This document shows positions 52,947 to 54,330 of a stretch of 64,000 nucleotides of DNA, in pieces; position 1 is the first letter of the stretch; each line of letters begins with the position of its first letter. The notes beneath the pieces were generated by a model, which was not told the origin of the DNA, searched no databases, and was given only the letters and a program-made list of their open reading frames with translations. Source of the DNA: Nitrospira tepida (GTDB taxonomy: Bacteria; Nitrospirota; Nitrospiria; Nitrospirales; Nitrospiraceae); contig NZ_OX365700.1 in NCBI RefSeq assembly GCF_947241125.1, positions 2,574,001 through 2,638,000 of the forward strand. The letters are read 5' to 3'. The translations under genes and the position numbers were made by a program.

Positions 52947-53756
52947 CTAGTCGATCCGGGCCGGCAGCGGGATATCCTTAAACAACAGATCGGCCAGTTG
53001 CCGCCCAAGATTGAGCTTGCCCGCTACCGTCGGCTCCAGGTGAAACCGCTCGACAAGCCCGCCGATCGCGGGATCGCGGGAGGATAAAAAACGAATCACG
53101 TCGGCTGGCGCCGTCGGCCAAAATCCGCGCAAGCGGAAAAAGGCCTCCAGGTACCGGTCGACAAACAGGGCCAGCAGATACTGCGCGGTCGCCGGCTTGC
53201 GCTGCAAGTCCTCGGCTTTTCCCAGGAGATGCAGGCACTCGGTTTTCAAGCGGATCTGCTCGAACAGGGCCACGCGCTCCGGTCCTTGCCGAAACCGCTC
53301 GGCGGCGCGCTCGACCAGTTGGGCGCCGACCCCCTCGTGATCGAACAGGACGCGGGCCTTGCGCAGCAACGACGCTAGCCTTGGAGAATAGGCGAGTTCC
53401 TCCTCCATCAGGCGCTGGCCCCGATACCGGATATCGACGATGCGATCCGCAACCCGGATCAATTCGTCCCGATCCGCCTCTCCCTTGACGACGGCGATCA
53501 AATCCAGATCGCTGTGGGGTGTCAACATGCGGCGCGCCGCCGATCCGGTCAGCAGCACCGCCACCAGATCGCCGCCCCGCTTGCCCTTTACGTGCCTCAG
53601 GGCATGCGACAGGATCTCGTCGAATCCCGGCGGTTCGAGAGCCTCGGGCGGTTCGGGAAGGTCCGGCACCGCCAGCAACTCAGCATTCAATTCTTGACGG
53701 GTCGGCCCGTCGACCGTCTCGCCCTCGGACGCTGCCGGTTTCACATCTTCATGCAT
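52947..53756 (-). CDS. Nucleotidyltransferase-domain protein
   Basis: 269 aa. Acidic Pro-rich first 40 residues, then a pol-beta-type nucleotidyltransferase core: VAVLLTGSAARRMLTPHSDLDLIAVV (GSxxR...DxD) with a likely third Asp in VDIRYRGQ. The second half is helical (LFEQIRLKTECLHLLGKAEDLQRK, YLLALFVDRYLEAFFRLRGFWP), like HEPN-type or substrate-binding helices in MNT proteins. Target unknown. It would lie about 22 bp after the small gene at 54020-54247 if the inserted MITE were absent. Confidence 0.8.
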   Translation of the reverse strand: MHEDVKPAASEGETVDGPTRQELNAELLAVPDLPEPPEALEPPGFDEILSHALRHVKGKRGGDLVAVLLTGSAARRMLTPHSDLDLIAVVKGEADRDELIRVADRIVDIRYRGQRLMEEELAYSPRLASLLRKARVLFDHEGVGAQLVERAAERFRQGPERVALFEQIRLKTECLHLLGKAEDLQRKPATAQYLLALFVDRYLEAFFRLRGFWPTAPADVIRFLSSRDPAIGGLVERFHLEPTVAGKLNLGRQLADLLFKDIPLPARID

Positions 53757-53781
53757 GGTGCTTCGTGAGAACGCCGGTTAG

Positions 53782-54019
53782 CCCGCATTATTCACGAGAA
53801 TTCGTGACGAAACCGCGGAGATGCCATGCGTTGGACCCATTGCATGGAGAAGAGCAATGGGTGCCCCGTGCGGAGCCGCGAAAGCCCGAGGCATACTTGC
53901 GACAGTATGTCGAGGGAGCGAGCGGCGAGCCCGCCTGGCTGGCTGCCCTTCAGGCGCGGCCAGTCTTGTCGCAGCGGCATATCGGCGGTTGCAGTAGAAG
54001 TCATCGTGAATAATGCGGG
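53782..54019. mobile_element. MITE-like element with 16-bp terminal inverted repeats
   Basis: CCCGCATTATTCACGA (53782-53797) and its exact reverse complement (54004-54019) bound 238 bp with no coding capacity. TTAG stands directly outside both ends (53778-53781, 54020-54023), a 4-bp target duplication. The interior has a short inverted repeat of its own. This fits a non-autonomous transposon; the 4-bp duplication is similar to IS1380-type elements, but no transposase here proves the family. Confidence 0.8.
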
Positions 54020-54247
54020 TTAGCCTCCGGTCGCTCCTTGAATCTGGGACGGGAGATCCGCCAGCCATTGGTCGAACGGCCGGTCGGCATCCACGATGAT
54101 CTCCAATTTTCCCGACTTCAGTTTTCTCACCAGGCCGGGGCTCTCGGTGGAGAGGGGGATTTCGATCCACTCGCGGTCCAACCCCAGTTGATCCGTCAGT
54201 TCGAGAATCCGGCTGATCTGCTGAAACGACACGGTCTCGAGCGGCAT
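54020..54247 (-). CDS. Small conserved-looking hypothetical protein
   Basis: 75 aa from ATG 54247 with GGAGG five bases upstream. Amphipathic and acidic: VSFQQISRILELTDQLGLDREWIEIPL, RKLKSGKLEIIVDADRPFDQWLADLP. No motif recognised. Its stop codon TAA is formed by the TTAG target site of the MITE (CTAA on this strand) and would be the same without the insertion. Confidence 0.6.
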   Translation of the reverse strand: MPLETVSFQQISRILELTDQLGLDREWIEIPLSTESPGLVRKLKSGKLEIIVDADRPFDQWLADLPSQIQGATGG

Positions 54248-54330
54248 CCGGCCTCCGTAGTTCTCTGGCATTCTAAAGATGGGATCGAAAGTGTGTCAAC
54301 GAACCCACCGCGGCCAAGCGCCGTGGTGTT

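Follow-up and report, generated by a model that had tools for sequence, protein, structure and literature searches.

What is the non-coding insertion that lies between two genes of Nitrospira tepida, what moves it, and what is its interior kept for? The locus stands in the window, by which we mean the whole 64,000-nucleotide (nt) stretch analysed here (assembly GCF_947241125.1, contig NZ_OX365700.1, positions 2,574,001 to 2,638,000), and the insertion, read directly from the sequence, covers positions 53782-54019, that is 238 base pairs (bp). Our analysis makes it highly probable that this is a miniature inverted-repeat transposable element (MITE) of the type of the insertion sequence (IS) family IS1380, mobilised in trans, with a conserved core kept as a single strand, most likely RNA. 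The features of the element are the following:

53778..53781, no strand: left target-site duplication TTAG, of the YTAR type (sequence read; YTAR flanks in other copies and in IS1380 elements)
53782..53797, + strand: left terminal inverted repeat CCCGCATTATTCACGA (sequence read, mechanical repeat finding, genome copies; same left end in the IS1380 locus L188)
53798..54003, + strand, the one folding as the conserved RNA-like model: structured interior (covariance model R1, covariation, strand asymmetry)
53835..53862, + strand: hairpin module resembling a repetitive extragenic palindromic (REP) sequence, ACCCATTGC...GCAATGGGT (hairpin also elsewhere in the genome, in free copies; an insertion relative to R1)
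53890..53914, + strand: conserved core hairpin, helix 9, here GGCATACTTGCGACAGTATGTCGAG (element set and fold alignment; IS110 enters its 5' edge in other copies)
53937..53965, + strand: hairpin helix 10, absent from shorter copies (L155, L357; position from the alignment to R1)
54004..54019, - strand: right terminal inverted repeat, exact reverse complement of the left one (sequence read, mechanical repeat finding, genome copies)
54020..54023, no strand: right target-site duplication TTAG, which holds the minus-strand TAA stop of a small gene (sequence read, gene list, joined flanks)

Relatives of the element in the genome and in the family

The terminal inverted repeats are perfect over 16 bp, and the reading of the sequence and the mechanical repeat finding, which recovered the pair too, agree on the insertion, its ends and its TTAG duplication as they had been described in the initial annotation of this DNA. 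That annotation had also seen no gene in the element, and indeed it holds only short mechanical open reading frames and no transposase gene. Its G+C content is 61%; bacterial MITEs are described as typically AT-rich in a review (PMC10969869).

A search for other copies, as the annotation had suggested, was made in the single 4.73-Mb contig of the own genome and found many, both by BLAST and by counts of the end pattern. With up to 2 mismatches, the 16-bp end occurred 76 times in forward and 82 times in reverse orientation, as compared to 1 and 0 for a reversed control pattern, and the whole element gave at least 82 BLAST pieces at E <= 10, which is a lower bound since 40 of 113 candidates were scored. 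These counts indicate that the element has dozens of relatives in its own genome and that the recurrence of the ends is not due to chance. When the first 120 loci were read for elements with both ends (at up to 3 mismatches, up to 2.5 kb), 75 were obtained; identical 4-bp flanks were present in 41 of them, and all 41 were YTAR (CTAG, TTAG, CTAA, TTAA). Of 147 genomes of the family, 119 matched the window element at E <= 0.001, five candidates being scored per genome. Most frequently the element measures 209 nt (25 of the 79 elements that have both ends and a recognisable core), and the window copy corresponds to this class plus roughly 30 nt with a hairpin, which align to R1 as an insertion. 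Judged by its ends, its duplication, the empty sites described below and its dispersed copies, the stretch can be classed as a MITE, a non-autonomous inverted-repeat element. A literature search, which did not extend to subscription papers or preprints, found no description of this element family.

IS1380 as the probable mobilising family

Genes of the IS1380 family (PF13701) were sought in 98 genomes, 29 of which matched, and 7 of the 30 loci fetched contained an end-like sequence at up to 4 mismatches. The transposase P0001, taken from one of these loci, is of IS1380 type according to Pfam (PF13701, E 5e-125); compared with public genome contigs, it gave 79 loci from the best 80 of 142 relatives, and 45 of these loci were examined. 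An end-like match (up to 6 mismatches) was present on both sides, with YTAR directly outside, in 35 of the 45, and the same four YTAR bases stood on both sides in 26 of these 35. The IS1380 locus L188 reads CTAA-CCCGCATTATTCACGA on the left and TCATGAATAATGCGGG-CTAA on the right, its left end being exactly that of the window; the right end TCATGAATAATGCGGG, one base from the window's, is also found in L158 and L160. IS1380 elements of Nitrospira and of other bacteria share CCYGSATWATTCAYGA-type ends and the YTAR duplication, and the mobilising family is most likely IS1380, the shared ends pointing to mobilisation in trans by its transposase. The likeness to the IS1380 family (DDE_Tnp_1_4, PF13701) thus lies in the end sequence and the duplication, whereas the MITE has no transposase gene and its fold was not seen as part of the IS in the 25 loci searched.

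In the own genome, five matches to PF13701 were found, corresponding to four intact copies and one fragment. The intact copies (L151-L154) are nearly identical and have other ends, CCCTATTCTCCGGCTAAGC, beginning CCCTATTCTCCGGC; they were rejected as the helper because of these different ends. The fragment lies beside a MITE in L086. Four copies of 1.3-1.5 kb in the own genome were considered as an autonomous parent and rejected, since they carry the transposase of an IS110 that has entered the element at a single point. An origin by internal deletion of an IS1380 was also rejected, as the R1 fold was not seen as part of the IS in 25 IS1380 loci. Upstream of the IS1380 of L155, the model found a separate, complete copy; its other hits were four short and weak ones (E 0.0026-0.077), of which the one of 49 nt (E 0.0026) falls inside the transposase gene of L166.

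Conserved fold of the interior

To describe the interior, we aligned 39 elements of 205-212 nt (15 from the own genome and 24 from other genomes), picked by length from the 79. The alignment folds into 68 pairs, 36 of which show changes on both sides. Paired cells amount to 96.8%, as compared to 87.7 after shuffling, a control that related sequences can exceed, and to 29.8-46.3 when the structure is slid by 1-3 columns, over which it is favoured because it was derived from the same sequences. Double-change cells number 256, as compared to 75.6 in the shuffled and 9-31 in the slid versions, and none of 500 shuffles reached any of the five fold measures. On positions 53782-54019, R1 scored 161.6 bits on the + strand and 38.2 bits on the - strand. 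The covariation indicates that the interior is a conserved multi-helix fold, with strong covariation, and not random filler. Rfam gave no match to the element (positions 53500-54300 of the window and five loci), the four matches listed falling in flanks; the element may therefore go unannotated.

Strand asymmetry of the inner helices

A fold present only as a duplex would show each G-T pair of one strand as A-C on the opposite one, so that the two should be equally common. In the inner helices (column 82, with a consensus G-U, being left out), the alignment contains 79 G-U and 23 A-C cells, and in the 16-bp ends 11 and 9; the observed ratio of 3.4 compares with about 1.5 (range 1.38-1.65) on column shuffling. 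Changes were also counted on a tree of 51 elements, the 39 and 12 new ones. Watson-Crick pairs of the inner helices had changed 60 times to G-U and 23 times to A-C (p 6e-5) and those of the ends 10 times to each, and the unpaired columns, which are exposed to the same mutations, gave 75:81 for the corresponding substitutions, which differs from the inner helices with a Fisher p of 3.6e-4. The 12 new sequences alone hold 18 G-U and 5 A-C cells, and the + strand of the element is the more stably folded one in 38 of the 39 sequences. Since the inner helices favour G-U on one strand, and the ends and unpaired columns do not, selection seems to act on a single strand; on our reading, the ends are kept as DNA for a transposase and the inner core as a single-stranded molecule, probably RNA.

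Another explanation could be that the element is an ordinary MITE and its fold only a DNA palindrome effect, present for cruciform or replication reasons, with no role of RNA. Stable stem-loops are indeed reported as common in MITE transcripts (PMC10969869), and both the ends and helix 10 lack the strand asymmetry. However, extrusion from double-stranded DNA would give equal numbers, unlike the inner helices set beside the unpaired columns, and the 209-nt class, which was picked by length, has conserved unpaired positions and a near-constant length. We consider this explanation doubtful.

The structured molecule could also be single-stranded DNA, for instance a strand exposed in replication or transposition. 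As the G-T wobble would be tolerated in DNA too, the same asymmetry would follow, and DNA folding of the window element gives a z of -7.2. Against this, PF13701 places IS1380 in a DDE family, and to our knowledge a folded single-stranded intermediate has not been established for DDE families; RNA folding is slightly stronger (z -8.0), which is a weak argument. Single-stranded DNA thus appears quite improbable to us, and we infer that the folded single strand is RNA.

Spread beyond the family and variation of the ends

At E <= 1e-4, R1 found the element in at least 61 of 245 genomes of the phylum, a lower bound given the strict filters and the nine candidates taken per genome; 55 of these genomes belong to the same family, 3 to another family of the order, 1 to another family of the class and 2 to a further family. 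Fifteen distant places were found and 14 viewed with their flanks. Thirteen of the 14 carry ends that are either related, such as CCCGGATTATTCATGA, or clearly different (CCCGCATTTCTCACCA), and L371 is without such ends; among the 13, YTAR is present on at least one side in 12. Two end types were distinguished, the CCCGCATT type and the CCCGGATT type. The distant copies are mostly 173-177 nt long, some 238-296. Among 32 genomes with IS1380 relatives, the element was found in 5 of the 6 Nitrospira genomes (5 to 56 matches, a count in which one place may figure with both its strands), and the 26 others gave a single weak R1 match (E 9e-5). No match was found in plasmid and phage collections with one 209-nt element searched in distant mode. 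Taken together, these matches indicate that several families of Nitrospirota have kept the fold, with ends that vary.

As described in the cited accounts, ERIC, Correia and MITEAba12 (PMC6382973, PMC10969869) are alike in being short and non-coding, with inverted repeats, a duplication, many copies and stable folds, and they are also thought to be mobilised in trans by an IS. In contrast to these accounts, the present element has an interior conserved across families of a phylum, covariation, strand asymmetry, 61% G+C and frequent insertion on stop codons.

Proposed mechanism and points that weigh against it

In the mechanism that we propose, an IS1380 transposase acting in trans would recognise the 16-bp ends and move the element, which would insert at a YTAR site, here the CTAA holding the stop of the small gene. 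The duplication would regenerate this stop, leaving the two proteins unchanged and the genes 263 nt apart, and it would be in a single-stranded molecule, read from one strand and most likely RNA, that the inner helices are maintained.

Several observations weigh against this proposal. On the side of the mobiliser, 10 of the 45 IS1380 loci are without a clear end and YTAR on one or both sides, some of them because of contig stops, and a matching duplication is rare in the distant copies, as only L363 among 13 has the same YTAR on both sides. No intact IS1380 with matching ends was found among the five PF13701 matches checked in the own genome, so the helper is identified by its family and not as a resident element, and the IS with shared ends that the annotation had suggested looking for was found at that level only. 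On the side of the fold, column shuffling alone already gives a G-U to A-C ratio near 1.5, the strand asymmetry is absent from helix 10 (9:8), and helices 3 and 4 carry no information on it (2:2 and 1:2). The split without helix 10, 51:15, was made post hoc after the helix 10 result and is not our main figure. The sequences are related, and the change events rest on a single FastTree topology; a consensus scan found no promoter or terminator within the element, and folding of single-stranded DNA could, as discussed, also favour G-T over A-C. Finally, the copies show no clear orientation bias with respect to neighbouring genes, which argues against a role in cis; a role as a sense 3' untranslated region was rejected on the same ground.

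Copies stand in either orientation and at many places, so selection on spread or on a function in trans is likelier than selection on each neighbouring gene, and we infer that the fold serves the element's own spread rather than the host. The element could go as far as being a mobile RNA gene, with a transcribed core and a fold needed for its own spread, for example by binding or guiding the IS1380 transposase, though we think this unlikely. If true, selection on mobility would keep an RNA fold phylum-wide, with DNA ends drifting to fit different transposases, which would make it an RNA-assisted DDE-type MITE.

MITEs are usually regarded as stripped-down transposons with a freely drifting interior. 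Here several families of a phylum to which important nitrifiers belong share a conserved interior fold, whose strand-specific signature, not explained by double-stranded hairpins, poses a testable question: does a MITE need RNA? The initial annotation had seen a MITE dependent on a transposase elsewhere. This part is supported by the present data, and the description was incomplete, as the RNA-like core, the hairpin module, the landing on stop codons and the landing of IS110 had been missed.

Landing on stop codons

YTAR contains TAA or TAG on both strands. Landing was examined with a home-made gene caller on flanks joined by script; 62 sites were read, and the 13 without YTAR were dropped. 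In this first sample of 49 sites, 18 were on a stop codon, 25 intergenic and 6 inside genes, as compared to 20, 148 and 108 for the remaining YTAR sites of these flanks (Fisher p 2.6e-5 for stop against intergenic). As the stop-codon idea arose from this sample itself, the analysis was repeated on 25 new sites, 1 of which was dropped: 9 were on a stop codon, 11 intergenic and 4 inside genes, as compared to 8, 101 and 61 (p 1e-4). Two of the nine, L358 and L359, represent one insertion in two species, and with this duplicate removed 8 of 23 sites were on stop codons (p 3.6e-4). In the second sample, the effect is carried by the distant copies, with 7 of 12 sites on stop codons (p 5e-4); the duplications of these copies are imperfect. 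The 12 sites from the same family, a sample too small alone, gave 2 stop, 8 intergenic and 2 inside (p 0.15).

The first sample thus gives good support to stop-codon enrichment in the own genome and family, and the second in distant families; within the family the enrichment is without support from an independent second sample. It could reflect a preference at insertion or survival after insertion, two possibilities that are indistinguishable here. Because the stop is restored by the duplication, the protein takes no harm from such insertions, and this landing would be a simple account of how dozens of copies are tolerated.

Flanking genes and empty site

The insertion lies between two genes of the minus strand:

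54020..54271, - strand: small upstream gene, 83 amino acids (aa), no Pfam family at E <= 0.01; it adjoins the nucleotidyltransferase gene in relatives too
52947..53756, - strand: nucleotidyltransferase-like downstream gene, 269 aa, which matches Polbeta and NTP_transf_2 weakly, at scores that do not reach the Pfam cut-offs

When the element and one TTAG were removed by script, the minus strand read stop TAA, 21 nt, ATG. The genes therefore come close upon removal, as reconstructed in the initial annotation, with a gap of 21 nt and not the 22 given there. That neither protein is altered is also confirmed: the duplicated CTAA of the minus strand contains the small gene's own stop codon, a point that had been missed, and the duplication regenerates it.

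Of 144 genomes of the family, 133, among them the own genome, contain the nucleotidyltransferase-like gene, and 30 loci, again with that of the own genome, were read for the empty site, a comparison that had been suggested from the start. Both flanking genes were present in 27 of the 29 other loci (no small gene was found at L277 and L279), and in all 27 the site is empty and the genes are close or overlapping. From the small gene's stop to the aligned part of the nucleotidyltransferase, the distance is 2 to 47 nt in these relatives, as compared to 263 nt in the own genome. Candidate start codons of the nucleotidyltransferase fall between 4 nt ahead of the end of the stop and 35 nt past it, and some relatives have extra in-frame candidates deeper inside the small gene.

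The folding strand (+) of the element is antisense to the operon at this locus. That the insertion was retained because separating the two genes retunes the operon is very improbable: as the genes are close or overlapping in the 27 relatives, any translational coupling would be lost here, and an operon transcript starting from a promoter-like site upstream of the small gene would cross the element, but this is one of dozens of copies, many on stop codons and in both orientations, as for tolerated insertions. The promoter-like site is a strong sigma-70-like match, TTGACA-18-TAGAAT (11/12), at 54299-54270 on the minus strand, directly upstream of the small gene's listed start; the true start of this gene may be a few codons further in than listed.

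IS110 in the core and the REP-like hairpin

The own genome holds ten identical copies of an IS110 gene, and seven of them (L061, L082, L083, L087, L310, L312, L313) lie in the core of the element, all entering at one and the same base and with CT as the junction dinucleotide; one mobile element here uses another as its landing site. The 5' non-coding region of the IS110 contains TACGCCT, matching the left side of the target and the core, and ACAGTTGC, matching the donor side, along with other matches of 6-8 nt, all of them counted with no chance level. The TACGCCT and ACAGTTGC matches would fit a bridge RNA, whose guide function is suggested by the matches only. In IS110 relatives of other genomes, no core match was found in the 30 loci scanned (two of which are own-genome copies); 7 of the 30 hold end-like matches, near the IS110 gene in L304 and L306.

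A precedent for a MITE as an IS landing site is QMITE2 of Coxiella burnetii, described as a MITE with an internal REP, targeted by an IS1111 element and often located in 3' untranslated regions (PMC5896051). By the same description, QMITE2 has duplications of 7-11 nt with variable sequence and a GTAG REP, and here, in contrast, the IS110 stands in the conserved core, outside the REP-like hairpin. Reported IS110/IS1111 elements with REP or attC repeats as their targets (PMC11187229, PMC11208160, PMC1525189) are alike in their repeat target, the CT junction and guide-like matches, whereas the target here is the core of an IS1380-type MITE.

The pattern of the REP-like hairpin, ACCCRTTGC...GCAAYGGGT, was found at 82 places of the genome, some in these MITEs, where it is sometimes nested, and some free (L234-L249). 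Long versions of the element, of 450-479 nt (L062, L086, L097), carry extra hairpins, one of them nested within a hairpin.

In two Nitrospira genomes that are drafts, contigs end within the element (L387-L396). A free domain of positions 57-123 was considered in the genomes G331 and G330 and rejected, the ten stretches fetched being contig ends inside the element, an assembly effect. Eight contigs of G331 carry near-identical left halves, which points to recent spread and is a hazard for assembly.
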